Below the pieces are notes generated by a model. The model searched no databases. It saw only the letters and a list, made by a program, of their open reading frames with translations, and was not told the DNA's origin. From Saccharothrix sp. HUAS TT1 (GTDB lineage Bacteria; Actinomycetota; Actinomycetes; Mycobacteriales; Pseudonocardiaceae), in NCBI RefSeq assembly GCF_040744945.1, contig NZ_CP160453.1, forward strand, positions 1,798,001-1,862,000: a stretch of 64,000 nucleotides of DNA. The letters are read 5' to 3'. Numbering within the stretch: the stretch's first letter is position 1; the number at the start of each line of letters is the position of its first letter. Positions 2,721 to 17,357 of the stretch are shown here, in pieces. Position numbers and translations under genes: made by a program.

Positions 2721-3179
2721 TCAGTTGACGCACGGGGCGAAGCCGTAAGCCTTGCCGTTGAGCAGCACGACGTGCTGCGAGCCGATCTGGCTGCCGACCT
2801 CGGCGCCCTCCTGCACCACGGTCAACGTGACCGCGACGACCAGCACCACGCCGCGCGGGTGCTCGTCCGCGCCGGGCGGCTCCCACGCCGGGTCCAGGCG
2901 CAGCGTGGACATGGTCGGCTGCACCTCGATGGTGCCCGAGGGCAGCTCGCAGTCCTCGTCGCGGAAGTCCGGGTGCTGGGTGTCCTGGAGCAGTTCGCGC
3001 TGCTCGGCCGTGCCCTGCCCGCCCGCCTCGTTCAGGTCGTTGAAGTACCCGGTCACCAACTCGCGCTCCACGTCGGTGACCTTGAGCGGCTGGGCGGCGC
3101 CTGTGATCGTCGAACCGCACCCGGACAGCGCGAGGGCGCACGTCGCCGCGGTCACGGCGCGCAGGAGCACGTCACCCAC
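2721..3179 (-). CDS. Secreted lipoprotein of unknown function
   Basis: A 152-residue protein with a short signal peptide ending in a lipobox (LALSGC, Cys at about 21), so probably lipid-anchored outside the membrane. The mature part has no motif I recognise; it carries paired cysteines (near DEDCELP and the C-terminal APCVN) that may form a disulfide. The GTG start at 3179 overlaps the end of dusB by 8 nt, so the two are likely co-transcribed and translationally coupled. A second GTG at 3170 would give a shorter signal peptide. No function can be assigned. Confidence 0.75.
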   Translation of the reverse strand: MGDVLLRAVTAATCALALSGCGSTITGAAQPLKVTDVERELVTGYFNDLNEAGGQGTAEQRELLQDTQHPDFRDEDCELPSGTIEVQPTMSTLRLDPAWEPPGADEHPRGVVLVVAVTLTVVQEGAEVGSQIGSQHVVLLNGKAYGFAPCVN

Positions 3180-4320
3180 CCGAGTGCATCTCGTCGGCGC
3201 CGACGGGCACGGTCGCGTCCTCCGGGTCGTCCAACCAGCCCTCGGGCAGCACCACCTTGCCGGGTGAACCCTGCCGGCCGCGCGGCTCGTCGGCGTTGTC
3301 CGGGAAGTCGAGTTCCGGGTCCAGCCTGCCGACCAGGTCGTCCAGCTCGGCGAGGGTCGAGACCATGGCGAGGTTGCGCCGCAGCTCCGCGCCGACCGGG
3401 AAGCCCTTCAGGTACCAGGCCATGTGCTTGCGCAGGTCGCGCAGGCCCTTGTCCTCGCCGAGGAAGTCCGCGAGCAGCACGCCGTGGCGGCGCAGGACGT
3501 CGGCGACCTGGCCGAGCCGCGGGCCGGGCGGGATCGGCTCGCCCCGGAACGCGGCCTGCAGCTCGCCGAACAGCCACGGGCGCCCCAGGCAGCCGCGACC
3601 GACGACGACGCCGTCGCAGCCGGTGCGGGCGACCATGTCCAGGGCGTCCCGGGCGCTGAAGATGTCGCCGTTGCCGAGGACCGGGACGCTGGTCACGGCC
3701 TCCTTCAGCCGGGCGATGGCGGACCAGTCGGCCTGGCCGGAGTAGCGCTGGGCGGCGGTGCGGGCGTGCAGCGCGACCGCCTGCGCGCCCTCGTCCTCGG
3801 CGATGCGCCCGGCGTCGAGGTAGGTGAGGTGGTCGGCGTCGATGCCGATCCGGAACTTCACCGTCACCGGCACCCCGGCCGGCTCCGCCGCGCGCACCGC
3901 GGCCCGCACGATCTGCCGGAACAGCTGCCGCTTGTACGGCAGCGCCGCCCCGCCGCCCTTGCGGGTGACCTTGGGGACGGGGCAGCCGAAGTTCATGTCG
4001 ATGTGGTCGGCCCGGTCCTCGCCGACGATGATCCGGGCGGCTTCCGCCATCGACTTCGGGTCGACGCCGTAGAGCTGCATCGACCGCGGGCTCTCGCCCT
4101 CGCCGAAGGTGATCATCTGCATGGTCTTCGCGTCGCGCTCGACGATCGCCCGTGCGGTGATCATCTCGCAGACGTACAGCGACGAGGGGCTGCCGAACTC
4201 GCGGCAGAGCTGGCGGAAGGCCACGTTCGTGATGCCCGCCATGGGTGCGAGCACGACGGCGGGGTCGACCGGGTACCGGCCGATCTTCAGGGGCTTGGTG
4301 GCGTGCAGCGCGGTGGACAT
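3172..4320 (-). CDS. dusB: tRNA-dihydrouridine synthase (DusB family)
   Basis: FMN enzyme that reduces specific uridines in tRNA D-loops. Family features are clear in the 382-residue product: APMAGITNVAFR at the first beta strand of the TIM barrel, the catalytic cysteine in MNFGCPVPKVTRKGGG, and the FMN-phosphate region VVVGRGCLGRPWLF. Length fits actinobacterial Dus proteins, with an acidic C-terminal extension. The ATG at 4320 (MSTALHATKPLKIG) is preferred over a frame extension of 14 codons because homology-like sequence begins at KPLKIGRYPV. No strong ribosome site is visible before it. The lipoprotein gene follows with overlap. Confidence 0.95.
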   Translation of the reverse strand: MSTALHATKPLKIGRYPVDPAVVLAPMAGITNVAFRQLCREFGSPSSLYVCEMITARAIVERDAKTMQMITFGEGESPRSMQLYGVDPKSMAEAARIIVGEDRADHIDMNFGCPVPKVTRKGGGAALPYKRQLFRQIVRAAVRAAEPAGVPVTVKFRIGIDADHLTYLDAGRIAEDEGAQAVALHARTAAQRYSGQADWSAIARLKEAVTSVPVLGNGDIFSARDALDMVARTGCDGVVVGRGCLGRPWLFGELQAAFRGEPIPPGPRLGQVADVLRRHGVLLADFLGEDKGLRDLRKHMAWYLKGFPVGAELRRNLAMVSTLAELDDLVGRLDPELDFPDNADEPRGRQGSPGKVVLPEGWLDDPEDATVPVGADEMHSGG

Positions 4321-4421
4321 CGCCGTCCATTGTCGCCCAGCCCAGGCAGTGGTGGGCGACACATCAGCGAATCACCCACGGCCACCCGCACCCGCTCCAC
4401 ACCGGTCGCGGGCCTGGACCG

Positions 4422-4892
4422 TTAGAACGGCACGCTGAGACACCCCAACCGCGCCCCAGCCGTCCCCGCGTGCCCCGGCTCGGTGTGCGTGTGCTCCTCG
4501 TGCAACACCACCGACCCCGCCCGCCTCTCACCGAACCTCCAGTCGACCCGCGCCACCGCGTACCCGCGACCGTGCGCGTCGGTGGTGAAGTCGAGCCAGA
4601 GCTCATTGCGCGGGTTCGCGAACGCCGGATCCGTCGCACCACCCTGAACGTGCTGGAAGTGCGCCCCCGCATCCGCCCCAGTGGGTCCGCAGGGGTTCAC
4701 GTGCGCATGTGCGCCGTACTCGCGATCGGGCAGCAGCCCGGTGGTCCGCAGCATCACCACCGTCCCACCACCGATGGGCGCAACCACCACCGAAGCCCGC
4801 GCTCCAGCCGGAACACGCGGGTCATAGCTGGTCAGGCCCCCGGACACCGGCGCGACCGAGGCAGCGAGCACGAGGGCCGCAGCGAGGTACAT
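4422..4892 (-). CDS. Secreted Cu/Zn superoxide dismutase-like protein
   Basis: The 156-residue product has an N-terminal signal sequence (YLAAALVLAASVAPVSGG) and a divergent SodC fold. GAHAHVNPCG supplies two copper-ligand histidines and the disulfide cysteine, AGAHFQHV the bridging histidine, LHEEHTH a late metal histidine, and LGCLSVPF the partner cysteine. Spacing is looser than in classical SodC, so dismutase activity is not certain; metal binding is likely. Translation starts at ATG 4892 behind AGGGGG. It stands about 100 bp upstream of dusB on the same strand. It probably acts outside the membrane against superoxide or as a metal-binding protein. Confidence 0.75.
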   Translation of the reverse strand: MYLAAALVLAASVAPVSGGLTSYDPRVPAGARASVVVAPIGGGTVVMLRTTGLLPDREYGAHAHVNPCGPTGADAGAHFQHVQGGATDPAFANPRNELWLDFTTDAHGRGYAVARVDWRFGERRAGSVVLHEEHTHTEPGHAGTAGARLGCLSVPF

Positions 4893-5009
4893 GCCCCCTG
4901 CTTATCCGCCCAACCACCACCCCCGCCACCACCATCACCCTTTCCGGTGGACTGCTCGGCCGGCGGCTATTCGAGGGCATCACCGATTCGAATGGTGGCT
5001 AGAGCGAAG

Positions 5010-5046
5010 TGGTGGGCCGCCAGGGACTCGAACCCTGAACCCGAAG
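5010..5046 (-). repeat. attR-like copy of the tRNA-Lys 3' end (island boundary)
   Basis: These 37 bp are identical to 16272-16308, the 3' half of the tRNA-Lys gene from the anticodon loop to the encoded CCA, in the same orientation. No tRNA 5' half follows (5047 onward diverges), so this is a remnant, not a gene. It is the expected distal attachment site of an element inserted in tRNA-Lys. The 209 bp to the next gene at 5256 hold nothing else I can name. Confidence 0.9.
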
Positions 5047-5255
5047 GTTGTGGATCTTGCTTACCCGTCGTCTGTCGACATCTTCCGATACCCGCCTTGG
5101 CCTGCGGAGTTTCCAGATGCGAACCACCATTGTGAATCGAACGACGCGGTCCTCTGTCGTCGTTAGTCGGGGGTAACCGGGGGAGTTGATCTCGCTGTCA
5201 AAAGCCGCTTGCCGCCCCAATATTCTCGCTGACCATTAGCAAAGCGATTCCTGTG

Positions 5256-6890
5256 TTAGAGGCTCCGACTTTCTTTAAACCCGGAATTGCAGTACGGGTG
5301 AGTCAACTGGGCGTTCGAGGGGTCGCCGGTCCCGCCGTCTTGACGACGAATAATGTGATCAACGGTTATCGAGCGCAGGTGCAGTCGCGCACCGCAGATC
5401 GGACATGCGGGTGAGCCCTCAAGCGTCGCCTTGAGTGCAAGAGAGTTCTTTGTGTCGCTAGTGAAGTTCCTGCGATGCTTACGATCGTCGTCCGTAATAA
5501 TTTTCACAGGAAGACGCGGAGCGGAGCTCGCACGCAGGGCATTAACCGCCTCTTCGTCACCTAGACCTGCAACGACAGAATCAAGGGAAATCCTGTAGAA
5601 CTCAAGGATTGAAGGTACTGACCGCTGAAGGCTTCCGTACGCTTGCACGATCTGATTCACGAAGTACTTGTACTCGACTATGAAGTCCTCAAACCGCTTG
5701 CGGTGTTCGGTAAATTTTGCGAGCCGCCGCTTCTCGTTGAGTTCTTGAGTGAAAGCCACTGCAGCGAGAAATGCGGCAGGCTGGAACCTTCCGGTCGCAC
5801 TGTAAAAATAAACTGCAGGGTGAAGCCCCAGCGAGCCCGGAGAGTTTCCGGAAACCCTTTCGGCTGCCTTCTTGACTGTCCGCATGAATCGGATAGTAGT
5901 CACACCATCCCGGTCGTCCTCTAGAATTGTAACCGTGTCGCGAACCACCTTCGAACGCCTCTTCGGTTCAACTTCGTCTCGCCAGCTTTCCGGTTGAAGA
6001 TCATTCACGAAGTTGACCAACTCGAATACCATTCTTAGGCTATCCGCCGAATAACCCTTACCGGCCACGGGTAGATCCGAAGATCGGATAGACAGGTCTA
6101 GCGTGGGCTTGAACAACAAGTTGTATACGTCTTCGGCGAGCTCTTGGATTGTGGTCTGGACGCTCTCGTCGAAAGACGACCAGTATTTGTGTCCCGTCCC
6201 TGCCCTAATAAAGGCCCGCGCTGCCAGCGCGTTCGGCTTACGACGAGCTCTGATAATATCAAGCTCGGTCGGATCAATGGGAGTAGCTTGCTGATTGATT
6301 CGATAGAACGACGTCTCAGCCTTCTCGGACTCACCGTTAACCCATTGCAACTGGAGTGCGAAGGCGCTAAGGTTCCGGGCTAGGCGCAAACGATCTTTCG
6401 AAGCTGTGTCCGAATTTTGTAGGGCAAGTTTAAGGTCAGAAAACGAACCCACGCTTCCTTGAATTGCATCACGTGTAGCCTTCGCCGCCTTCTTCTGCTC
6501 ATCTGGAATGACACCGTCGAAGAAACGCAGCGATCGATGCTTATCGCCGTAGTCGTCATGAACCCACGCAATAAGAGCACTCAGCCTGTGCGCGCCATCG
6601 ATGGCAAAGATATTACCACTCTTGGGTGATCGCCATAGAATGATGGCTGGAATGAGATCGCCTTCAAGGAAGCTTTGAACCAAAGCGGCCACTTTGTCTG
6701 GTGTCCAGTTAGCCGTTTCCCTTTGGAAGTCAGGTTTGCGAAGGACGTTATACATTAGGCTATCAGGCGCAAGATCCGTGACGCCAATGTTCGTCATGAG
6801 ACCTGATGGTTGAGTGATTACGTCAGGACTTACTGCCTCGAAGTCCTCGCGAGGAATCAAGGCATCAAGGTTGACCATGTACTTTGGCAT
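5256..6890 (-). CDS. DUF262/ParB-like plus HNH nuclease-type protein
   Basis: A 544-residue protein with GC near 50%, clearly foreign to this genome. The N-terminal part resembles DUF262/GmrS-type domains: FQRETANWTPDKV (about residue 55) and DGAHRLSALIAW (about 98), the latter like the DGQHR motif. The last 50 residues are an HNH domain with zinc cysteines (CPICG), TVDHI, a GG-D-N stretch and HPYCN. The family includes the modification-dependent restriction enzyme GmrSD and other phage-defence nucleases, so a role in restricting foreign DNA is plausible but not shown. ATG 6890 is chosen for GGGGAG just upstream; an upstream GTG at 6968 has no such site. Confidence 0.8.
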   Translation of the reverse strand: MPKYMVNLDALIPREDFEAVSPDVITQPSGLMTNIGVTDLAPDSLMYNVLRKPDFQRETANWTPDKVAALVQSFLEGDLIPAIILWRSPKSGNIFAIDGAHRLSALIAWVHDDYGDKHRSLRFFDGVIPDEQKKAAKATRDAIQGSVGSFSDLKLALQNSDTASKDRLRLARNLSAFALQLQWVNGESEKAETSFYRINQQATPIDPTELDIIRARRKPNALAARAFIRAGTGHKYWSSFDESVQTTIQELAEDVYNLLFKPTLDLSIRSSDLPVAGKGYSADSLRMVFELVNFVNDLQPESWRDEVEPKRRSKVVRDTVTILEDDRDGVTTIRFMRTVKKAAERVSGNSPGSLGLHPAVYFYSATGRFQPAAFLAAVAFTQELNEKRRLAKFTEHRKRFEDFIVEYKYFVNQIVQAYGSLQRSVPSILEFYRISLDSVVAGLGDEEAVNALRASSAPRLPVKIITDDDRKHRRNFTSDTKNSLALKATLEGSPACPICGARLHLRSITVDHIIRRQDGGTGDPSNAQLTHPYCNSGFKESRSL

Positions 6891-7552
6891 CTTGGCTCCC
6901 CATGCTGCGACCTCTGTCGCTAGGTCGCTTAGGCCACTGTCTTGGTCGTCGGTCGCACAATAGATCACGCAGGCGTTCGACGCTATGACGGCACCCGAGC
7001 CGCCAGTCCTTCGCGACTGATGATCTTGAAGCGCTGACTGACAAGCCTAGCCGTCTGCGTGTTACTGCTCGTCATGACGTTCGAGTAGGACCAACAAGCG
7101 TAGTCACTGCGAAGGCAAGCCTGTGGGCTGGTCGATGCCGTCAAGGCGTCGGGCTGTCCACAGGCGCGGCAGCCGAGCGCCATGACAGCCCTGCCAAGCC
7201 GACTCCTCGCGCTCGTCCCATGTCCGAACGCTGGAAACACCCCGCAAGAGCAGCGCCAGTCTGACCACGCGGTTCCCTGCGGGGACGCTGGCCGTGGCCT
7301 CCGGCTGTTGTGGGCGGGCTCCGGTACCTCGCGTGTCGCGCCCGTGGGCCGCCAGGCCCACGTTGGTGCGACCGAGGACATCGCCGAAGGCCGCCCGCGA
7401 CAGCCTCAAAGGGTACGAACGGCCGGCGGTCCCCGCAGGGGGCCGCCTTGATGAAGAAAAGAAACTCTGAACACCGTGGTCAGGCTGCCTCGGTCCACAC
7501 TGGGGCCAGTGTCACTGGCGCGTGGTGGGCAGGGATGGCATAGGAGTAGGGC
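6891..7552. other. 662-bp gap without a convincing gene
   Basis: Short open frames exist on both strands but their products show no family signature, no good ribosome sites and overlap each other, so I do not call them. Composition changes from AT-richer near the DUF262 gene to GC-rich after about 7150. An imperfect hairpin (arms GGCGGTCCCC and GGGGCCGCC) lies at about 7425-7447. It could hold promoters for the flanking genes or the remains of a lost gene. Confidence 0.4.
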
Positions 7553-8200
7553 ATGGTCGTGGCGGTGGTGTTTGACGTGGGTGAGACGTTGCTGGACGAC
7601 TCGCGGGAGTGGGGGGCTTGGGCGGACTGGGTTGGGGTGTCTCGGCACACGTTCTCGACGGTGCTCGGGGCGGTGACTGCGGCAGAGCGGGATAACGCGG
7701 AGACGTTCCAGTACTTCCGGCCTGGGTTTGATGTGGCCCTTGAGCGGCGGTTGCGGGAGGAGGCGGGCGTCGGGGAGCGCATCGAGGAGGACGACCTCTA
7801 CCCGGATGTGCGGGCTGGGTTGGCGCGGTTGCGGGAGCTTGGGGTGTGGGTGGGGGTTGCGGGGAACCAGACGGCTCGGGCGGCTGAGTTGCTGCGTGGA
7901 TTGAAGTTGCCGGTGGATGGGCTGGCGATGTCTGGTGAGTGGGGTGTGGCCAAGCCTGCGGCGGAGTTCTTTGAGCGGGTGGTGAGGATGACGCCTGCGG
8001 CGGTGGCTGGGGATGTGTTGTACGTCGGTGATCATCGGGACAACGATGTTGTGGCGGCGAAGGCTGCTGGGTTGCGTACGGCGTTGATCCGGCGTGGCCC
8101 GTGGGGATACCTGTGGGCCGATGACCCGTTGGTGCGTCGTGATGCCGATTGGGTGATCGACTCTCTGCGCGACTTGCCGGAGCTGCTTAGGGACGCGTGA
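7553..8200 (+). CDS. HAD-superfamily hydrolase
   Basis: A 215-residue cytosolic protein with HAD motifs in order: FDVGETL (motif I, nucleophile Asp at 8), VGVAGNQT (motif II), the lysine of VAKPAAEFF (motif III) and YVGDHRDNDV (motif IV). The second aspartate usual in motif I is replaced by Gly (DVG rather than DxD), so classical phosphatase chemistry is doubtful; other HAD hydrolases carry such changes. ATG 7553 follows AGGAG at 6 nt. Substrate unknown. It lies in the island between the nuclease-like gene and the STAND ATPase gene. Confidence 0.85.
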   Translation: MVVAVVFDVGETLLDDSREWGAWADWVGVSRHTFSTVLGAVTAAERDNAETFQYFRPGFDVALERRLREEAGVGERIEEDDLYPDVRAGLARLRELGVWVGVAGNQTARAAELLRGLKLPVDGLAMSGEWGVAKPAAEFFERVVRMTPAAVAGDVLYVGDHRDNDVVAAKAAGLRTALIRRGPWGYLWADDPLVRRDADWVIDSLRDLPELLRDA

Positions 8201-8600
8201 GCTGGCAAACGTTTGTTGGTGAGCGGGCACAGGGCTCACGCTGCCAGGCTGAGCAGGTCGGTGCTGAGCGAGGGATAAGTGTGCAGAAGCACCGACAAGG
8301 CTTGGCGGACCTGAGGATGTGAGCTGGCATGTTCGGGTGCTGTCGGCGTACAGGTGAATGTGCATAGCCTGGTACGAGTGAACGTGCACACAGGCACCAG
8401 ATGATCCCAGCTTCGAGCACGACTAAGTCCGCCCCACGGCTCGGACACATCCAGCAATTGCCTAGATGTTCAGCCGTGTGGCATTGCCGCCACCAACCCA
8501 CCGAACAAACGTCCTCTTCGGGTTCGGCACCGGGCCGTACCGCGAGTCTGAAGTAACCGACGGGCATTGGGCGGTCCGATGGCCGGATTGGGGTGGCGGG
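8201..8600. other. 400-bp gap between converging genes, nothing recognised
   Basis: Lies between the 3' ends of the HAD gene (plus strand) and the STAND gene (minus strand). Small frames on the minus strand have no recognisable products. No strong terminator stem was found by eye. Confidence 0.4.
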
Positions 8601-10946
8601 TCAGTCGTGGCCGCTTGTCGTAGTCTCGAGAGTCGAGCGGATCGTTCTGGTCAGGCCGTGGTCGGGGCCCAACACCCGTTCGGCATGGGCCAGTGTCGCC
8701 TTGTACAGCGGGATTGCCCGTTCCAGATCACCCGCCCTCCGATAGGCGCTGGCCAGGTTGCTGCGTGAGGCCAGCGTGTCAGGGTGGTCGGGGCCTAGCA
8801 CTCGTTCGGTATCGGCCAGTGTTGCCTCGTGCAGCGGGATTGCCCGTTTCAGATCACCCGCCGCCTGGTAGGTGCTGGCGAGGTTGTTGCGTGTGGCCAG
8901 CGTGTTCGGGTGGTCGGGGCCCAGCACTCGTTCGGCATCGGCCAGTGTTGCCTCGTGCAGCGGAATTGCCCGTTTCAGATCACCCGCCGCCTGGTAGGTG
9001 CTGGCGAGGTTGTTGCGTGTGGCCAGCGTGTTCGGGTGGTCGGGGCCCAGTAACTGCTGCCGATCGGACAGCGTTGCTTCGAACAGCGGAATTGCCCGTT
9101 TCGGATCACCCGCAGCCTTGTAGGCGGTGGCCAGGTTATTGCGAAAGACCAGCGTGTCAGGGTGGTCGGGGCCCAGCACTCGTTCGGTATCGGCCAGCGT
9201 TGCCTCGTGCAGCGGGATTGCCCGTTTCGGATCACCCGCCGCCTGGTAGGCGTAGGCGAGGTTGTTGCGTGAGGCCAGCGTGTCAGGGTGGTCGGGGCCC
9301 AGCACCCGTTTGATATCGGCCAGTGTTGCCTCGTGCAGCGGAATTGCCCGTTTCAGATCACCCGCCGTCTCGTAGGCGCTGGCCAGGTTGTTGCGTGAGG
9401 CCAGCGTGTTCGGGTGGTCGGGACCCAGCAGCCGTTCGGCATCGGCCAGTATTGCCTTGTACAGCGGGATTGCCCGTTCCAGATCACCCAACATCCGATA
9501 GGCGCTGGCCAGGTTGCTGCGTGAGACCAGCGTGTTCGGGTGGTCGGGGCCTAGCACTCGTTCGGTATCGGCCAGTGTTGCCTCGTGCAGCGGGATTGCC
9601 CGTTTCAGATCACCCGCCGTCTGGTAGGCGTAGGCCAGGTCACTGCGTGAGGCCAGCGTGTCCGGGTGATCGGGGCCGTGGAGGCGCTGGCGGCTATGGG
9701 CGGCGCGGGTGTGCAGTGCGATGGCAGTGGTGGTGTTGCCCTGGTCGCCGAGGTAGCCGCCGAGGCGATGGGCGAGGTAGCAGAGCGGTTCGGTATCGGT
9801 GTCGGGGTGGGTGTGTTCGAGCAGTGCCCGCGCGTGGGGCAAGACCGTCTGGAAGACGGGCCAGTCGGCGGGCAGGCGGTGGTCGGCTCCGGTGAGGGCG
9901 GTGGCGAGGACGGTGGCGGTGGTGTCGCGGGCGTGGGCGATGTCGGTGGGTTGGCGGTGGGGGTCGGTGGGGTCGGGGGTTCGGGTGAGGGTCTGGACTA
10001 GGCGGTGTACGCCGATGGTGTCGCCGGTGAGGGTGATCATGCTGTAGGCGGCCAGCCGGCCTAACGCCTCCGACAGGTCCGGCTCGTCGAACACGCCCGC
10101 GAGCAGGGTGCGGGGGATGGCGTCGGGGGCGTACCAGGCCAGGTGCCGCAGCACCCGCCCGGCCAGGGGTGTGTCGTCCAGGCGGTCCAGGGTGACGCGC
10201 CAGACGCGGGCCATGGTGCGTTGGGCGTCTCCGCCCTCCGCGGCCGCGGTGAACATCCGCGCCGGGTACCGCTTCAGCAGGTCCAGGTAGGTGAGCGGGG
10301 TGATACGGGTCTGGGCGAGGTAGGCGCCTGCCTGCTCGATCGCCAGCGGCAGCCACCCCAACTCTTCGCACAGTCGGTCGGCGTCGGGCCGCTCCGCGCG
10401 CACGATGCGGGTCAGCAGCTCCACGGCCTCTTCGGCGGGCAGCACGTCCAGCGGGATCGTGGCAATGCCCTGCCAGCCGGTGCCCTGGCGTGAGGTGATC
10501 ACGATCGTGCCGGTCCGGACTCGTTCCAGCAGCCCTGCCGCGTCGGCAAGCGTGGTCAGGTTGTCCAGCACGAGCAGCCACCGGTCATGGGTGGCCAGCC
10601 ACCGCACGGCCAGTTCGGTGCGCTGCTCCAGCGGCGCACCCGCAACCTGAGGGGCGAGGGTGGTTGCCAGGTCGGCCAGGCCGGTGTCGATCGCGGACGG
10701 GGAGTCCGCGGTGATCCACCAGACCGGCGCGTAGCGGTCGGTGTGCAGGTGGGCGAAGCGGGCGGCCAGGGTGCTCTTGCCGACCCCACCCAACCCGTGG
10801 ACCGTGACCACCACCGCGCGCCCCGAACCCGCCACCGCCGCGTCCAGACGCGCCAACTCACCCGACCGCCCCACGAACAGCTCCGAGTCGGCCGGAATCC
10901 TGCCCAGTCCCGGCGTCGCGGGGGATCGACTCCATGGCTGGCACAC
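8601..10946 (-). CDS. NB-ARC/TPR STAND ATPase
   Basis: The 781-residue product has a P-loop (VHGLGGVGKST, about 49-59), Walker B (WLLVLDNL, 123-130), the NB-ARC-type motif LGWLPLAIEQAG (about 203) and, from about residue 410, some nine 42-residue kinesin-light-chain-type TPRs with the core LGPDHPNTLASRNNLA. STAND proteins of this build are signal-activated oligomeric switches; several bacterial members act in phage defence. No effector domain is fused, so the adjacent 2-TM protein may be the effector. The GTG at 10946 has no good ribosome site. A typical STAND leader (GTTIGALQGTLVQGDLVV) lies upstream in another frame (11025 to 10858), and removing one C from the run at 10920-10924 would join them, so the N-terminus is probably frameshifted. 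Confidence 0.8.
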   Translation of the reverse strand: MCQPWSRSPATPGLGRIPADSELFVGRSGELARLDAAVAGSGRAVVVTVHGLGGVGKSTLAARFAHLHTDRYAPVWWITADSPSAIDTGLADLATTLAPQVAGAPLEQRTELAVRWLATHDRWLLVLDNLTTLADAAGLLERVRTGTIVITSRQGTGWQGIATIPLDVLPAEEAVELLTRIVRAERPDADRLCEELGWLPLAIEQAGAYLAQTRITPLTYLDLLKRYPARMFTAAAEGGDAQRTMARVWRVTLDRLDDTPLAGRVLRHLAWYAPDAIPRTLLAGVFDEPDLSEALGRLAAYSMITLTGDTIGVHRLVQTLTRTPDPTDPHRQPTDIAHARDTTATVLATALTGADHRLPADWPVFQTVLPHARALLEHTHPDTDTEPLCYLAHRLGGYLGDQGNTTTAIALHTRAAHSRQRLHGPDHPDTLASRSDLAYAYQTAGDLKRAIPLHEATLADTERVLGPDHPNTLVSRSNLASAYRMLGDLERAIPLYKAILADAERLLGPDHPNTLASRNNLASAYETAGDLKRAIPLHEATLADIKRVLGPDHPDTLASRNNLAYAYQAAGDPKRAIPLHEATLADTERVLGPDHPDTLVFRNNLATAYKAAGDPKRAIPLFEATLSDRQQLLGPDHPNTLATRNNLASTYQAAGDLKRAIPLHEATLADAERVLGPDHPNTLATRNNLASTYQAAGDLKRAIPLHEATLADTERVLGPDHPDTLASRSNLASAYRRAGDLERAIPLYKATLAHAERVLGPDHGLTRTIRSTLETTTSGHD
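8640..9690 (-). repeat. Tandem 126-bp repeats encoding TPR units
   Basis: Eight to nine head-to-tail copies of a 126-bp unit, each 42 codons, within the STAND gene. Several neighbouring copies are nearly identical at DNA level (for example the two near 8830-9050), which suggests recent duplication or gene conversion and possible copy-number change. Confidence 0.85.
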
Positions 10947-11025
10947 CCGGTCCGCCGACTACCAGATCGCCCTGCACCAGGGTGCCTTGCAGGGCGCCGA
11001 TCGTGGTCCCATCGGCACCAGTCAC
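10858..11025 (-). other. Displaced N-terminal reading frame of the STAND gene
   Basis: A 55-codon frame from GTG 11025 encodes a Gly/Val-rich leader (GNVTG just before, then GTTIGALQGTLVQGDLVV) of the kind found in front of STAND ATPases. It ends at TGA 10858-10860, inside the gene but out of frame. Reading one C fewer in the five-C run at 10920-10924 yields a continuous protein through IPATPGLGRIPADSELFVGR. Whether this is a real mutation, a switch or a sequence error cannot be told from here. Confidence 0.6.
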
Positions 11026-11084
11026 GTTCCCGGTGACCGAGGCTGCCGGTGCGGCCGTGGTTGGTGCCGCCGACGTGGCGTGGC

Positions 11085-11462
11085 CTAAGGCCGCGTCGGC
11101 AGCGGAGGGTCCGGAGGGCCACCAACCTGGCCGATGTGCACCCCAGTGGTCGTCCCGGAGCCCGAGCCGCCAGTCACGTCGCCGGTGAAGACCACTCCGC
11201 CGCCGGTGGCTGTCTGCGATGCAGCAGGCGGAGCCACCTCCCGGGCAGCGGTGCGGTCACGTCCCTGGCGCAACGCAACGAACGCCACCACCGCGCCGCC
11301 GATGCCGGCGATCCAGCTCAACGCTTCCAGGACCGGCCGCGCCCAATGCGTCTGGTCGGTCAGGAAGACCGGCACACCGAATTGCAGTACCGCCCACACC
11401 ACACCACCGCCGACCAGCGCGCCACCAGCCACCCACCAGGTACGGCTTCGAGCGACCACCAC
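11085..11462 (-). CDS. Small two-TM membrane protein next to the STAND ATPase
   Basis: A 125-residue protein with two hydrophobic segments (about WWVAGGALVGGGVVWAVLQF and ALSWIAGIGGAVVAFVAL), then a cytosolic or external tail ending in a Gly/Thr-rich pattern (GGVVFTGDVTGG, GTTTGVHIGQVGG). That tail resembles the leader found upstream of the NB-ARC gene, hinting at a shared interaction surface. GTG 11462 is preferred because GAGGGG lies just upstream; a TTG at 11483 is possible. It stops about 60 bp before the STAND leader and is on the same strand. Inference: membrane effector or anchor for the STAND ATPase; no family is recognised. Confidence 0.65.
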   Translation of the reverse strand: MVVARSRTWWVAGGALVGGGVVWAVLQFGVPVFLTDQTHWARPVLEALSWIAGIGGAVVAFVALRQGRDRTAAREVAPPAASQTATGGGVVFTGDVTGGSGSGTTTGVHIGQVGGPPDPPLPTRP

Positions 11463-11808
11463 GACAACCCCCTCAACCCACAAGGGCTGCAGCGCCCACG
11501 GACCGATACCCGATGATCGCAGCCCTGCCGCCCACCGCTACCGAAACCACGCGTGACCACAATATCTGCTCGTCCAGGGCCGGCGCGTACACAGCTCAAA
11601 CCCATAGCTCAACGAATTTGACGTCGATCCGTACCTGCTTCTGGCCACTGCTGTACACGTCCTCCCGTACTTACATCTGCGCACCAGGGCGTACACCGAC
11701 AGGTGCTGCTTGGCGGGCAGCCCGCATACGGAACAACCCGGCTAACGCCTACCCTCATCCTTATCGGACCATGAACGTTGTCCTGTACGTGGACAGCAGC
11801 GGTACTCG
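11463..11808. other. 346-bp gap, likely promoter region of the 2-TM/STAND pair
   Basis: No coding frame on either strand has a recognisable product. It is less GC-rich than the flanks, and its position upstream of the 2-TM gene and downstream of DUF397 makes it the likely promoter and terminator region. No clear palindrome was found. Confidence 0.35.
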
Positions 11809-12003
11809 TCAGACGTCGAGGCTTCCCGACTTGATGGCGGACAAGAAGCGCCGGTATCCAGCGTCACGGAACGCCAAGGCCCCGGCGACTGGTGCCTTGC
11901 TGTCGCGGAAACTAGTGCTGGTCTCGGCGACGGCCAGTTCTACGCACTCGTTGTTGCCGCTGCTGCGGCTTGACTTGCGCCAGACGATGTCGGACAGATC
12001 CAT
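11809..12003 (-). CDS. DUF397 protein
   Basis: A 64-residue protein with the family pattern WRKSSRSSGNNECVELAV and FRDSKAPVAGALAF. Known: actinomycete DUF397 proteins are small partners of XRE/DUF5753 regulators and are usually encoded next to them, sometimes in a toxin-antitoxin-like or developmental-switch arrangement. ATG 12003 has AGGAG about 10 nt upstream; a GTG at 12009 is too close to that site. It follows the XRE gene by 14 bp, so they form one operon. Confidence 0.9.
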   Translation of the reverse strand: MDLSDIVWRKSSRSSGNNECVELAVAETSTSFRDSKAPVAGALAFRDAGYRRFLSAIKSGSLDV

Positions 12004-12017
12004 CGTGGCCACACTCC

Positions 12018-12881
12018 TCACTTGCTACCAAGCTCTGCGATGACCGCGGAGATCAACTCGGCCGACTCCGACGCACTCAGAGCGACTGACGCAGCCTCGT
12101 CGAACACGTTGATGAAGTCCACCACTGCCTGCGGTGCCTCGACCCACTCACCGCCTGCTGGATGTTCGAGGTAGACGTTCGGCGGATCCTCGGGGTCGGG
12201 GAACTCAAGGATCGTCACCGGGCCGCCCATCGTCCCGATGGCACCGACACCGAACGGCAGGATCTGAATGGTCACGTTGGGCTGCTTCCCCAGCTCCAGC
12301 AGCCGCTTCAACTGGCCGAGCATGACCTCAAGACCGCCGATGGTCCGGCGGACCACGGCTTCGTCAATCACTGCATGCACCTGGAGCGGGTCGGGGCCGG
12401 TGAGGACGCGCTGACGGCTCACTCGCGCGGCGACGGACTTCTCGACGCCCTCGCGTGGGACGAACTTGTCGGCGGTGTGGATGGCGCGGGCGTAGTCCTC
12501 GGTCTGGAGCAGGCCCGGCACGAGCAGGGGTTGGAGGAACAGGCCGCGGGATGCCTCGGCCTCCAGGCGGACGTAGGCGCGGAACTTGCGAGGGAGTGCG
12601 TTCAGGTACTCGGGCTGTCTGCCGGTCTGGGAGGCGTCGGCCCACATCTCGAACGCCTGGCGTCGCGTGTCGTCGTCGGCGGAGAGGAAGTCCAGCAGCA
12701 CCTCAAGGTCGCTGTGCTTGATCAGCGACTTGCCGGTCTCGAACCTGCTGACCGTGGCGTCCGAGCAGTGCAACCGCTCCATCACGGCCTCGACGCTGAC
12801 GGACCGCTCGTCCCGGAGCGTGCGCAGGAGCTGCCCGAGTCGCCTCCTGCGCTTGGTGGGGCCGCTCTGCCTTGCTGTCAC
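12018..12881 (-). CDS. XRE-family regulator with DUF5753
   Basis: A 287-residue protein with an N-terminal helix-turn-helix (about residues 14-70: LGQLLRTLRDERSVS, CSDATVSRFETGKS) and a C-terminal DUF5753 domain (from about 100: LFLQPLLVPGLLQTEDYARA, then RVSRQRVL and ILPFGVG). It is the DNA-binding partner of the DUF397 protein. An inverted repeat GTGTATC/GATACAC at 12929-12953 lies upstream and could be its own operator. Start is GTG 12881. Confidence 0.92.
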   Translation of the reverse strand: MTARQSGPTKRRRRLGQLLRTLRDERSVSVEAVMERLHCSDATVSRFETGKSLIKHSDLEVLLDFLSADDDTRRQAFEMWADASQTGRQPEYLNALPRKFRAYVRLEAEASRGLFLQPLLVPGLLQTEDYARAIHTADKFVPREGVEKSVAARVSRQRVLTGPDPLQVHAVIDEAVVRRTIGGLEVMLGQLKRLLELGKQPNVTIQILPFGVGAIGTMGGPVTILEFPDPEDPPNVYLEHPAGGEWVEAPQAVVDFINVFDEAASVALSASESAELISAVIAELGSK

Positions 12882-13276
12882 GGCTGAACCCTAGTCGGGG
12901 TGATCACCCGACAGCATCCACACTTTCGGTGTATCGACGGTGTGTAGATACACTCTGTACCTTACGTTTGCCGATGGGGTCACGTCTCCTCCCTGGAGAC
13001 GCAGGATGGACAGCCTGCGAGCAACGCACGGCCGTGACCCCGTTGGTCCCGCATGGATCGGCACGTCGTAAGGAGGAACGCCGACCACCGCGCCGCTGTT
13101 GGTGTGGATGTCCTGTGCGGATGTGCTGAGGGCGTACAACATCAGCAATTGAACGTGGCTCGCACTTGCGATGAACGAGTCGAAACACTTTTTCTCGCCG
13201 CATCCCCATGGATCGGCGAGTCGAACCACTGCCCAGACCGCTGGCACCCGGCGGTCACACCACCTAGCCTTGAGAC
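12882..13276. promoter_or_regulatory. Divergent promoter region with inverted repeat 12929-12953
   Basis: This 395-bp gap separates the divergent XRE and kinase genes. It contains an inverted repeat with 7-bp arms (GTGTATC at 12929-12935, GATACAC at 12947-12953), a plausible operator for the XRE regulator. Short frames in the rest have no recognisable products. Confidence 0.45.
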
Positions 13277-14194
13277 GTGACGGACGGCATGAGCATTGAA
13301 GTCAACTCCCCCGCCTTCGGCCTGAAGCGCGCGAAAAACATCCTGGCGCAGGCTTGCGAACTGGCCGAATTGCCGGTGTCGTCGGCACGTCCTCTGCGAC
13401 TCGGAGAGAACGCCCTGTTCCACTTGCCGAACCTTGGCATCGTCGTTCGCATCGCACGTGGACCTGACCACTGGCCGGATGCGTACAAAGAGGTCCAAGT
13501 ATCGGACTGGTTGGGCAGTCAGGCGATTCCGGCAGCAAAGGCGTTGGACATCCCGCAGCCAATCTCAGTGCTCGGGCATCCTGTCACTTTTTGGTTCTAC
13601 ATCGACGGCAGGAACGGCGGCCCTGACGACGTCGCAGCTCTCGGCAAGCTCCTCCGACGCCTGCACGCCCTGTCAGCGCCTACGACGTTCAAGCTGCCAA
13701 CGGCTTCGGTCTTGGATCGCGTCGTTCCGCGCATCGAGGCTGCAGGGATCTCGGGCGATGACCGCAGCTTCCTGACTTCGCGTGTGGACTCGCTCACCGC
13801 GTCCCTCAAGGAGTTGGAGTTCCCGTTGCGGGCGACTGCGGTCCACGGTGATGCTCACGTGCAGAACCTGATGATCACAGGTGGAACTGCGACCCTCATC
13901 GACTTCGAGCGATTCGCATGGGGGCAACCGGAGTGGGATCTCGCGGTTACGGCAACCGAGTACGTGACGGCTGGTTGGTGGACTGACGAGCAGTATGGGC
14001 TGTTCGCCGATGCCTACGGTTACGACATCACGCAGTGGGAGGGGTTCGACGTTCTGCGACAGATCAATGAAGTCAAAATGACCACTTGGCTGATGCAGAA
14101 CGTGAACGAGTCGGAGGAAATCGCGCGTGAGTACGAGCGGCGGATGAACACGCTCCGCTCGGGTGAAGCCACGCGGGATTGGCAGGCTTTCTAA
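13277..14194 (+). CDS. APH-like phosphotransferase (kinase fold)
   Basis: A 305-residue protein of the aminoglycoside phosphotransferase/choline kinase fold. The catalytic loop is AVHGDAHVQNLM (Asp of HGD and Asn present) and the metal-binding motif is LIDFERFAWGQPEWDLA. The N-lobe is divergent, with a possible ATP lysine only weakly placed (RIARGPDHWPDAYKE). The substrate is unknown; resistance should not be assumed. GTG 13277 gives the longest product; ATG 13289 is an alternative. It converges with the regulator at 14198 with 3 bp between stops. Confidence 0.85.
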   Translation: MTDGMSIEVNSPAFGLKRAKNILAQACELAELPVSSARPLRLGENALFHLPNLGIVVRIARGPDHWPDAYKEVQVSDWLGSQAIPAAKALDIPQPISVLGHPVTFWFYIDGRNGGPDDVAALGKLLRRLHALSAPTTFKLPTASVLDRVVPRIEAAGISGDDRSFLTSRVDSLTASLKELEFPLRATAVHGDAHVQNLMITGGTATLIDFERFAWGQPEWDLAVTATEYVTAGWWTDEQYGLFADAYGYDITQWEGFDVLRQINEVKMTTWLMQNVNESEEIAREYERRMNTLRSGEATRDWQAF

Positions 14195-14197
14195 CCC

Positions 14198-15592
14198 TTA
14201 CGCGACGCGTGAGAGCATGACGGCGGAACCGAGGGTAAAGTTGGGGTAATTGCGCAACACACCCTCGGCGAAGTGAGTCACGAGCGGGTTCTTGGGGTGC
14301 GTTTTGTTCAGCGCGTCGTAAAAGTCCGTCAAGTACCTCACGTAGCGGCTGGACTGGAGCGGTCCGGCGAGGTCGACCGCATCGAGCGCCAACGCGACAG
14401 CCTCGTCCGGACTGCCGTTCGTGAGTGCACCCGCTGCGGTGACCATCCCGATGAACGCGCGCGTCCTGGGTGGTGTCGCCTCCGGTGCGATCGCCTGGGC
14501 GGCGAAGAGTCGCGTCTCCTCCGCTCGACCCAGGTCGCGGAACCCGTGCGCTGCCTCGCCGGACAGCTCCTCGGCGTTGAAGTACTTGATCCAGTCGGGT
14601 TCGTTGTCTGGTGAGTAGTGCTCGAAGATCCGTTCGGCCTGCGTGAGCACACGGGCGAACTCCGCGGCCTGGCCGCTGCTGGCGAGTGCACGTGCCTCCA
14701 TCGCCAGGAACATCGAGCGGACGGCGGGAGTCGCCTTGTCGCCGGTCGCGGTCCGGGCTGCGCGCGCCAACTGGACCGCGTCAGCGTGGTGACCGAGGTA
14801 GTTCGCCTGGTGGCTCAGGTTGGCCAGCAGTCGGCCACCGATGATCGAGTCGCTTGCTTCGCGCGCGAGGCGCAACCCCTGCACGAAGTAGCGTTGAGCC
14901 GCCGCGTGCCGTCCGGCGTCGTAGGCGCTCCAGCCGAGCAACTGCGCCACTTCCGCAGCGGCGCTGAACAGGTCTCGCCTGACCGGTCCTGGGTGCGGTT
15001 GGCGCAGTAGCGGTGCGATCTCGGTCTTGAAGTAGAAGAGCAGCATCCGCCTGACGTGACCGCCGCCGAACTTGAAGTCCAGGTCCATCAGGTGCGCTGC
15101 GGTCGCCCGGATCGCTGCGGCTGCGGGACCGGCTGAACGAAGGCTCTCGCCGACTTCGAGGCTGTCGCCGAACAGGTAGCCCGTGATGACGCCCGGCGTC
15201 GCCGCGCTGGTCCACCCGGAACGAGCCAACCCCGGTTGGTCCTCAAGGTCGGCCGCAGTGAGTTGGCCCAGCAGTTCGACGGCTGTGGAGGAGCTTGCCG
15301 GGTAGTCGGCCGCCGACGCTGTCGCGTCCGGTCCGACCGGCTGCAACGTCGAGGAGAAGCCGATTTCTTCGAGGGACACCGGGCGCCCCAGCTTCGAGCC
15401 CAGGGCCAAGGCGATGTACTGCTGCGTCGCCGCTTTCGGGCTGGTGCCGTCAAACCACCGCTTCACGGATACGTGATCGGCAGCGATCGTCTGCCCGTCC
15501 CGCGCGGCCAACTCGCGTACACGTGCGGCCAGGCCCTTTGCTCCCGCCGCCCGCATCACGTCACCTAGAAGGCGGTTCGGCTCGCGCGTCAC
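14198..15592 (-). CDS. TPR-containing regulator (XRE/NsdA-like type)
   Basis: A 464-residue protein with a short N-terminal DNA-binding-like region (MTREPNRLLGDVMRAAG, then DHVSVKRWFDGTSPKA, about residues 1-60), similar to streptomycete regulators of the NsdA/TPR type. It is followed by a long helical array of degenerate TPRs (for example WSAYDAGRHAAAQRYFVQGLRLARE and LSHQANYLGHHADAVQLARAAR). Likely a signal-responsive regulator using the TPRs to bind a peptide or protein. Two direct copies of GCGTGCACCC (15621-15630 and 15664-15673) lie upstream and may be binding sites. Confidence 0.75.
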   Translation of the reverse strand: MTREPNRLLGDVMRAAGAKGLAARVRELAARDGQTIAADHVSVKRWFDGTSPKAATQQYIALALGSKLGRPVSLEEIGFSSTLQPVGPDATASAADYPASSSTAVELLGQLTAADLEDQPGLARSGWTSAATPGVITGYLFGDSLEVGESLRSAGPAAAAIRATAAHLMDLDFKFGGGHVRRMLLFYFKTEIAPLLRQPHPGPVRRDLFSAAAEVAQLLGWSAYDAGRHAAAQRYFVQGLRLAREASDSIIGGRLLANLSHQANYLGHHADAVQLARAARTATGDKATPAVRSMFLAMEARALASSGQAAEFARVLTQAERIFEHYSPDNEPDWIKYFNAEELSGEAAHGFRDLGRAEETRLFAAQAIAPEATPPRTRAFIGMVTAAGALTNGSPDEAVALALDAVDLAGPLQSSRYVRYLTDFYDALNKTHPKNPLVTHFAEGVLRNYPNFTLGSAVMLSRVA

Positions 15593-15620
15593 CCCCTATG
15601 GGTCCACCTCGGCCACGGGT

Positions 15621-15673
15621 GCGTGCACCCTCACAAGCACCCCCCAAGCACCCCCTCGTGTCCGCGTGCACCC
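15621..15673. promoter_or_regulatory. Paired GCGTGCACCC direct repeats upstream of the TPR regulator
   Basis: Identical 10-bp copies at 15621-15630 and 15664-15673, 43 bp apart (about four helical turns), in the gap before the regulator start. Possible operators; inferred from position only. Confidence 0.35.
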
Positions 15674-15723
15674 CTGCGAACACACTGCCATACACCTGCT
15701 GACCTGGCGTTTGCTATTCCCAT

Positions 15724-16218
15724 GACACGCCGGGTGAGCTGGAATTCATCCTCCTGCGCCTCCGCCTCCTCCCGGAGGAGGTCCGGGAGATCAGCGATCA
15801 GGTCGACCGTCTTCGGGACCACCGATCCCTTCGAGAGACGCCACCCGACGCCGAACGACCGATCCCGCTGGCGGACTGGTGTGTCGCCATGTTGGTGGAA
15901 AGGCGTTCGAAGGCGTCGAACCTCGACGGTCCGATCTTTCCCAGTTCGACCGGCACGATTCGTGAAGCGACCAACGTCCGCAATCGCGCCTGGAAGCCGT
16001 TCATCACCCGAGCGGGCTACGAATGGGTGACTTTCCGAACCTTCCGCAGGACCGTCGCCACGCTGTTGGACGAAGCGGGTCTGACGGCGAGGCAGATCGC
16101 CGACCTGCTCGGCCACTCCCGGCCGTCGATGACGCAGGACGTGTACATGGGGCGCAGGTCACCGGGTCGGGCGGCGGCGGATGCGCTTGGCGCTGTCATC
16201 CGCGTAAGTGAGGGGTAG
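15724..16218 (+). pseudogene. Tyrosine integrase, truncated C-terminal fragment
   Basis: The frame is open from 15703 to the stop at 16218, but integrase-like sequence starts only near 15860 (RPIPLADWCVAMLVERR). The catalytic C-terminus is recognisable: TFRTFRRTVATLLDEAGL (box II Arg; the usual His three residues before is Arg), LLGHSRPSMTQ and the nucleophile region QDVYMGRR. The N-terminal core-binding half and the first catalytic Arg are missing. The first in-frame ATG is at 15889, giving a 109-residue product. It lies 53 bp from the tRNA-Lys attachment site, as expected for the element's integrase, now probably inactive. Confidence 0.8.
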
Positions 16219-16271
16219 ATGAGGGCTTCGAGGTTGCTCGGTCCCCGACCCATCGTCGTGACCAGCGGGTT

Positions 16272-16347
16272 TGGTGGGCCGCCAGGGACTCGAACCCTGA
16301 ACCCGAAGATTAAAAGTCTCCTGCTCTGCCAATTGAGCTAGCAGCCC
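16272..16347 (-). tRNA. tRNA-Lys (TTT)
   Basis: Minus-strand tRNA with acceptor stem GGGCTGC/GCGGCCC, anticodon TTT in GACTTTTAATC, T arm with GGTTCGAGTCC, discriminator A and encoded CCA (16272-16274). Its 3' half (16272-16308) is the attachment site of the adjoining island. Confidence 0.97.
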
Positions 16348-16502
16348 TTGGTCGACAGCTTACCGAGGCGGCGCCCGTCGGTGAGCGAGGTGGTCGGGTC
16401 CGGGGTGTGGGTGGCGTCACGTCCGGGCGGTGGTGGGGGCTGCGGTGCTGGTCAGGGGGTTCCAACGATCGCGATCACGGCGCGCGGGCTAACGTGGGGC
16501 CG

Positions 16503-17357
16503 GTGCGGGTGGTCACTTGGAACGTCAACTCGATCAAGCAGCGGGCGCCGCGGTTCTTGCCGTGGCTCGACCAGCGGCGGCCCGATGTGGTGTGCCTGCA
16601 GGAGACGAAGCTCGCCGACGACGCCTTCACAGCGCTGCTCGGGGACGAGCTGGCCTCGCGCGGGTACGAGGTGGCGGTGCACGGGGAGGGGCGCTGGAAC
16701 GGGGTGGCGGTCCTGTCCCGGGTCGGGTTGGACGACGTGGTCACCGGGCTCGCCGGTGGGCCGGGGTTCCCGCACCAGGAGGCGCGGGCGGTGGCGGCGA
16801 CGTGCGGTGGGGTGCGGGTGCACTCCGTGTACGTGCCGAACGGGCGGGAGCCCGACTCCGACCACTACCGCTACAAGCTGGCCTGGCTCGCGGCGTTGCG
16901 GGACGTGGTGGCGGACGGGCCGGAGGACGCGGTGGTCTGCGGTGACGTCAACATCGCGCCGGCCGACGCGGACGTGTTCGACCCGGCGGCCTTCGCCGGC
17001 CACACGCACGTGACCGCGCCGGAGCGGGAGGCGCTGGCGGCGCTGCAGGCGCTCGGGCTGCACGACGTGGTCCGCGACCGGTGGCCGGACGAGCGGGTCT
17101 TCAGCTACTGGGACTACCGCGCCGGGATGTTCCACCAGGACCTCGGCATGAGGATCGACCTGGTGCTCGCCTCGACCCCGGTGTCGGCCAGGGTGAAGGC
17201 CGCGTGGGTCGACCGGCAGGCCCGCAAGGGCACCGGCCCGAGCGACCACGCGCCCGTCGTGGTCGACCTGGACGAAGCCCCGGACGGCGACATCGGACCG
17301 GTGGTGCCGCCGCCGTCCGCGCCCCGCGCCCGCAAGTCGGTCAAGGTCCCCCGGTAG
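16503..17357 (+). CDS. xth: Exodeoxyribonuclease III
   Basis: AP endonuclease and 3' exonuclease of base-excision repair. The 284-residue product shows the EEP-fold motifs: TWNVNSIKQR (Asn), VCLQETK (metal Glu), CGDVNIAP (Asp/Asn), FSYWDYR and GPSDHAPVVVDL (catalytic Asp-His). A Pro/Arg tail of about 20 residues extends beyond the catalytic domain. Start GTG 16503 is set by the beta-strand RVVTWN beginning immediately after it; the frame upstream is not family-like. It converges with the monooxygenase gene with a 6-bp gap. Confidence 0.95.
   Translation: MRVVTWNVNSIKQRAPRFLPWLDQRRPDVVCLQETKLADDAFTALLGDELASRGYEVAVHGEGRWNGVAVLSRVGLDDVVTGLAGGPGFPHQEARAVAATCGGVRVHSVYVPNGREPDSDHYRYKLAWLAALRDVVADGPEDAVVCGDVNIAPADADVFDPAAFAGHTHVTAPEREALAALQALGLHDVVRDRWPDERVFSYWDYRAGMFHQDLGMRIDLVLASTPVSARVKAAWVDRQARKGTGPSDHAPVVVDLDEAPDGDIGPVVPPPSAPRARKSVKVPR

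Follow-up and report, generated by a model that had tools for sequence, protein, structure and literature searches.

What is the 11.3-kb stretch of DNA found at the 3' end of a tRNA-Lys gene in Saccharothrix sp. HUAS TT1, and do the genes it carries defend their host? The window analysed here is a whole stretch of 64,000 nucleotides, bases 1798001-1862000 of contig C1 in a genome of 8.7 Mb and two contigs, and a sequence-only reading of it had proposed a defence-type island with a disabled integrase. We consider it likely that this island is the relic of an actinomycete integrative and conjugative element (AICE) with a nuclease resembling GmrSD and BrxU and a membrane-linked STAND protein, for which a putative defence role, origin and mechanism of exchange are proposed below. 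Related elements carry other, mostly unrelated, low-GC genes in the same slot, many of them of defence type. What this analysis adds is that the cargo slot is conserved and adjoins a probable rolling-circle origin; cargo would be exchanged there.

The insertion site is defined by three features:

16272..16347, minus strand: tRNA-Lys(TTT), the integration target (ARAGORN; Rfam tRNA)
16272..16311, minus strand: repeat copy at the tRNA 3' end, 39/40 identical to 5010-5049
5010..5049, minus strand: distal repeat copy, the second attachment site (att), which maps onto the lone tRNA copy of the empty site L027

The last 40 bases of the tRNA are repeated at 5010-5049 with one mismatch, and the repeat is exact over 37 bp counted from the tRNA 3' end, so that the exact 37-bp copies of the tRNA-Lys 3' half described earlier do bound the island. 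Across the whole genome the tRNA probe matched five places, namely the tRNA, the distal repeat and three weaker ones (77-88% identity). Both flanking proteins were followed through 60 relatives, of which 24 belong to the same genus, and the site stretches of all 24 were fetched and probed with the tRNA. A second copy of the tRNA 3' end occurred in 13 of the 24 (L029, L030, L031, L032, L034, L036, L038, L041, L044, L046, L049, L048, for which the second 3'-end copy alone was within reach, and G001, made up of contigs L050 and L051), while four had a clean empty site with one tRNA copy and 0.9-1.5 kb between the flanking genes (L027, L028, L037, L039) and in seven the stretch has a single tRNA copy but its DNA or its order is different (L033, L035, L040, L042, L043, L045, L047). 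In L027, the left flank of the window up to 5049 corresponds to 614-1252 and the right flank from 16274 to 1215-1403, with a single tRNA copy where they meet. The tRNA call, the repeats and these empty sites thus agree on an insertion at the 3' end of tRNA-Lys, and such integration with a direct repeat is a mark of pSAM2-type AICEs. The tRNA-Lys is inverted relative to its flanks in L036, L038, L039, L041, L042, L044 and L045; the four of these that have a second copy carry it on the 3' side of the tRNA.

Occupied sites in relatives point to the type of element and to what the window copy has lost:

15889..16218, plus strand: C-terminal integrase remnant (Pfam Phage_integrase, 7.2e-8, profile positions 95-166 of 172)
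15848..15868, no strand: deletion junction at which transfer, replication and most integrase sequence is gone (L051 has ~7.3 kb between the matching parts)

At the same site, L034 encodes RepSA (PF20199, 1.7e-149), a protein of FtsK/SpoIIIE type and a complete integrase, in the order att, cargo, a conserved non-coding element named HP2/END, HAD, regulator, small genes, FtsK, RepSA, integrase and tRNA; L051 has close relatives of these RepSA, FtsK and integrase proteins (92-96%, tblastn). RepSA, an FtsK-type protein and an integrase are hallmarks of pSAM2-type AICEs (PMC3218068). L051 matches the window over 11772-15868 (88%) and 15848-16461 (86%), but the two parts lie ~7.3 kb apart in L051, and FtsK, RepSA and most of the integrase lie between them; the two sides of the junction share just a few bases. 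The integrase remnant keeps ~121 of ~457 residues, whereas L034 and L051 retain ~457, which bears out the claim of a disabled integrase left as a C-terminal fragment beside the tRNA. Since an open reading frame (ORF) and Pfam scan found no RepSA, FtsK-type transfer gene or complete integrase in 5010-16311, we name the island a relic and not an AICE. Given the repeats, the empty sites, the same-site relatives and the missing 7.3 kb, we read it as the mosaic, immobilised remains of a pSAM2-type AICE at the tRNA-Lys 3' end, transferable DNA that is probably no longer able to move. It resembles pSAM2-type AICEs in tRNA 3'-end integration by a tyrosine integrase, in its small control genes and in the RepSA, FtsK-type protein and integrase of its same-site relatives; it differs in lacking RepSA, the FtsK-type protein and most of the integrase in the window copy, and in having HAD or APH genes with TPR regulators in place of the Nudix (Pif) and XRE genes of pSAM2 (PMC3218068). 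Elsewhere in this genome (G000:C1:8464841-8471978, L059 and beyond), an END copy occurs with an FtsK-type gene and a RepSA gene 5.8 kb downstream, which is probably a more complete AICE.

The cargo slot and its borders are laid out at the distal end of the island:

5050..5197, plus strand: att-side conserved block adjoining the distal repeat (blastn matches in L029, L031, L032, L034, L036, L038, L044, L050 and L058)
5256..6968, minus strand: slot gene, GmrSD_N (DUF262) and HNH nuclease, 570 aa
7108..7191, plus strand: HP1, conserved non-coding hairpin (11-copy alignment, palindrome kept)
7263..7475, plus strand: HP2/END, probable rolling-circle double-strand origin, with the motif CCTTGA at 7446 (alignment, covariation, position relative to RepSA, motif)

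In the window, the DUF262/HNH gene thus lies between the att-side block and HP1. Relatives hold different cargo at the same place, as the sequence-only reading had anticipated:

L029: HATPase_c_3 protein and C5-methyltransferase
L031: relative of the NB-ARC/TPR protein
L032: Mrr-nSTAND3
L034: NACHT protein
L036: 490-aa protein with a borderline Mrr_N match
L038: Mrr-nSTAND1
L044: another GmrSD_N protein
L050: ORC-CDC6-like ATPase
L058 (G000:C1:1868000-1882000): 1260-aa protein with a NACHT match below cut-off, between HP1 and HP2

L058 is a second island of the same genome, ~67 kb further on, with the att-side block, HP1 and HP2/END. At the tRNA-Lys site, L049 carries Lamassu LmuB/LmuA genes (L049:4520-8161); its integrase remnant has diverged, and no HP element matches there. 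With exchangeable cargo set between borders that are conserved, the slot resembles defence hotspots in layout. Slot genes also stand apart in third-codon-position GC content (GC3), which was 0.48-0.59 in 14 of 15; ten other genes of the islands or elements had 0.74-0.86 and two core genes 0.96-0.97. An all-against-all comparison of 47 slot proteins gave 12 related pairs at E <= 1e-6, and one gene pair is common to two different elements, L029 and L098, at 85-89%.

A further 20 HP2/END places were fetched and one ORF per place was chosen, a choice that may be wrong in places; together with the window, L029, L032, L034, L036, L038, L044, L050 and L058 they make up 29 places, whose slot ORFs were scanned with PADLOC and Pfam (Pfam without L116 and L117). 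Seventeen slot genes are clear members of nuclease, methyltransferase, HATPase, STAND/AAA, Fic or defence families (window, L029, L032, L034, L038, L044, L050, L098, L101, L102, L103, L105, L108, L109, L110, L114, L115), four are weak (L036, L058, L104, L111) and eight are other (L099, L100, L106, L107, L112, L113, L116, L117). This last group comprises pentapeptide-repeat, TPR-only, unmatched or weakly matched proteins, and it lends some weight to the view that this is an ordinary decayed AICE whose slot takes chance low-GC hitch-hikers, defence types being frequent merely because they are common in actinomycete mobile DNA. The PADLOC controls cut both ways here. At E <= 1e-10, matches were found for 8 of the 29 slot genes (L032, L044, L105, L108, L109, L110, L114, L115) and for at most 2 of the 31 chromosomal genes of the window, which speaks against hitch-hiking, but also for 4 of 10 genes that lie near the slot in these loci but outside it. 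This last count fits the hitch-hiker view: PADLOC matches by themselves do not tell slot genes from their neighbours, single matches prove little, and PADLOC is weak as a stand-alone test. Part of the nearby non-slot DNA is itself variable, since the control set includes a strong DpdB match (L117:4383-5504, 6.3e-151), another defence-related region near that END. Most elements nevertheless have a different gene, of distinct composition, at the same place, and in three loci from Streptomyces a gene of the DUF262/HNH family seen in the window has an END-like motif next to it, so that we regard chance hitch-hiking as unlikely. The earlier claim of defence-type cargo stands by family resemblance for the slot gene and for many genes that replace it; the PADLOC comparison with nearby genes is mixed, and the HAD gene and APH/TPR pair look more like backbone.

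Is the conserved border of the slot a replication origin? In the window, HP1 forms a hairpin with 21-nt arms that are 76% complementary, and the 381-base HP1/HP2 stretch has a folding z of -5.2. In an alignment of 11 HP2 copies, both partners vary in 12 pairs, compared with 7.3 in shuffles (a value reached by 3 of 500), and the covariation score was reached by none of 500 shuffles; for HP1, covariation was not above shuffles. Several other identities were tried and rejected. Single-base indels in the alignment rule out a coding stretch, no Rfam match at E <= 1 other than the tRNA was found in 4400-16500, and neither the phage collection (no match) nor the viral contig collection (no exact pattern match) suggested a phage-borne element. 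Transposon ends, considered for the large gene between HP1 and HP2 in L058, were dropped because HP1 precedes HP2/END on the same strand, with the cargo lying ahead of both or between the two.

HP2, often its END part alone, matched at least 117 of 297 genomes of the family, and RepSA was found in at least 235 of the 297; nine Streptomyces plasmid records also have HP2/END matches. Of seven HP2-matching records inspected, five list a gene for FtsK, a replication initiator or an integrase no more than 6 kb away; a sixth lists none there and the seventh is unannotated. Among the matches listed, 61 of 73 RepSA rows are on a contig that also has one of the 144 END rows, 47 of them within 20 kb, and in all 47 of these pairs END lies upstream on the same strand, 5.7-13.3 kb from RepSA. 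Within END, a CTTGA core is near-invariant in 42 distinct copies. Rep_1-type origins are nicked at CTTGATA (PMC10378824), the annotated phiX174 origin contains CTTGAT, and the nick site of pSAM2 puts it in the pC194 family (PMC3218068). HP2/END therefore combines a nick-like motif beside a hairpin with a fixed polarity to the initiator gene, as a rolling-circle double-strand origin does. On the strength of the covarying stems, the RepSA polarity, the near-invariant core and its occurrence in known origins, HP2/END is probably the double-strand origin of the element. It may instead be another fixed part, such as a terminator, a regulatory RNA or a transfer locus: a strong covarying hairpin would also fit an RNA, and RepSA is several kilobases away in every one of the 47 pairs. 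The near-invariant core, its counterparts in phiX174 and at the Rep_1-type nick site, the placing of pSAM2 in the pC194 family by its nick site and the lack of any Rfam family match speak against such a part, which we hold to be a serious but lesser possibility.

Turning to the slot gene of the window, its GmrSD_N (DUF262) domain is clear (1.4e-13, 51.8 bits against a Pfam cut-off of 33.2), but Pfam found no GmrSD_C (DUF1524) nuclease domain in it; because HNH PF01844 takes that place at the C-terminus, we do not file the gene as GmrSD, and the same feature sets it apart from BrxU and SspE. BrxU and SspE are its best rows in a structural comparison. A sequence search of solved structures gave no match, and no SspBCD partners occur among the island genes scanned. 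Its GC content of 0.53 and GC3 of 0.57, compared with 0.73-0.74 and 0.96-0.97 in two flanking core genes, confirm the low-GC DUF262/HNH protein seen earlier, and the conserved residues of the family are kept in 21 of 22 sequences, the exception being a broken copy in L020. The protein most likely acts like GmrSD, BrxU or SspE, with a ParB/sulfiredoxin-fold sensor domain controlling the HNH nuclease, which would cut or nick invading DNA. The invader need not be a phage, since slot genes may serve competition among conjugative elements and plasmids, the DUF262/HNH protein then restricting incoming elements. In keeping with this, RepSA and integrase relatives lie near DUF262/HNH homologs in L008, L009 and L020, and the END-like motif lies beside such genes in L008, L010 and L020. 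Homologs also occur, however, in Planctomycetes, Acidobacteria, Verrucomicrobia, Desulfobacteraceae and Alpha-/Gammaproteobacteria loci, where the RepSA and integrase probes used found no such element, and families of other slots (Lamassu LmuB, AbiLi, SoFic and RmrA in PADLOC) are named as anti-phage; element competition is on balance rather improbable as an explanation.

A second candidate for defence, consistent with the STAND ATPase and membrane partner noted from the sequence, lies beyond the probable origin:

8601..10946, minus strand: NB-ARC/TPR STAND protein, start uncertain (Pfam; frames)
11085..11483, minus strand: small protein with two predicted transmembrane (TM) segments (hydropathy; TM segments fused to related NTPases in L031, L102 and L111)

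NB-ARC, AAA_16 and TPR all score over cut-off, giving the NTPase with repeat sensor that characterises STAND ATPases. The two genes are adjacent in the window and in G001 (58% and 71% identity), and three slot proteins (L031, L102 and L111) have two TM segments fused ahead of the NTPase, which supports a possible link between the two-TM and NB-ARC proteins. As in STAND immune ATPases of the NB-ARC/TPR type (Avs-like), an NTPase is joined to a repeat sensor; the difference is that the effector candidate in the window is the separately encoded two-TM protein. The pair most likely forms a second, membrane-damaging abortive-infection module, the start or intactness of the window gene being uncertain because the linker found ahead of the NB-ARC domain in L050 is out of frame with that domain in the window. 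PADLOC gave no match to the NB-ARC protein at 0.01, and the 19 matches listed among solved structures were TPR proteins, mostly kinesin light chains, over the repeats. The TPR region (8532-9713) consists of 126-nt repeats, six of seven other aligned copies being 84-89% identical to the reference, a recent expansion or homogenisation. The TM/NB-ARC cassette of G001 (L050, L051) is opposite in direction to window 8600-11560, and both contigs break in repeats. By family resemblance, the island would thus carry one, perhaps two, immune cassettes.

The remaining genes are regulators and backbone:

7553..8200, plus strand: HAD hydrolase, backbone gene of one element type (Pfam; 87-95% identical in six same-genus islands)
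8260..8367, minus strand: stub of the HTH/TPR regulator found after HAD elsewhere (36 residues, 64% identity to residues 439-474 of an L034 protein)
11809..12021, minus strand: DUF397 protein (Pfam)
12018..12881, minus strand: HTH/DUF5753 regulator (Pfam; 92% identical in L102, 92-94% in L051)
13277..14194, plus strand: APH-family phosphotransferase, backbone of a second element type (Pfam; alignment of nine)
14198..15592, minus strand: TPR regulator convergent with APH (alignment; helical-repeat model, pLDDT 65)

HAD is followed by the HTH/TPR regulator in all seven other HAD-bearing loci compared, in L030 by a piece of it only. APH and the TPR regulator, the second element type, recur in nine other loci, eight of them aligned, with identities to the window copies of 55-82% for APH and 70-95% for the regulator, except in L106 (20% from a wrongly framed alignment row, 68% by tblastn). 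The window hence holds parts of both element types. The HTH/DUF5753 gene also occurs in L115 at 74%; a sequence search of solved structures found no match to the TPR regulator. Regulator pairs had been counted as cargo, and the HTH/DUF397 pair is indeed present, but part of that regulator cargo recurs as backbone in other elements, and the HAD gene and APH/TPR-regulator pair are better read as backbone. They are probably leftover transfer-control or conjugal-immunity genes, like the Nudix/XRE pair of pSAM2, in which the Nudix protein Pif confers conjugal immunity and which recurs as a cluster in AICEs (PMC3218068). Outside the island, we take the left-flank gene 3172-4362 to be DusB-like and the right-flank gene 16407-17357 to be exonuclease III-like; the second left-flank gene (4422-4892) has a weak Sod_Cu match in Pfam.

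How far does this arrangement have precedent? Defence hotspots have been described for phages, satellites and Pseudomonas islands, and those of phages and satellites likewise have one exchangeable immune cassette between conserved borders (PMC9122126), whereas the carrier here is a RepSA-type conjugative element and the border its probable replication origin. AICEs have already been linked to nearby defence genes through diDNase genes, in an account that, in the part cited, describes neither a fixed slot nor an adjoining origin (PMC11706625), and the cargo of Frankia AICEs includes NB-ARC and methyltransferase genes not labelled as defence in the figure legend (PMC3218068). Among the open PMC papers listed in our searches, no title or abstract opening describes a defence slot beside an AICE origin. 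Because the PADLOC control with nearby genes was mixed, we propose only tentatively, and at somewhat less than even confidence, that RepSA-type AICEs share a defence-exchange slot anchored at their rolling-circle origin, whose non-coding borders (att-side block, HP1, HP2/END) would let elements swap single low-GC immune cassettes, so that the origin motif could bait unknown defence systems. If this is true, a short conserved DNA mark beside exchangeable AICE cargo would offer a cheap bait for new actinomycete immune genes, and the slot would tie immune-gene traffic to conjugative elements.

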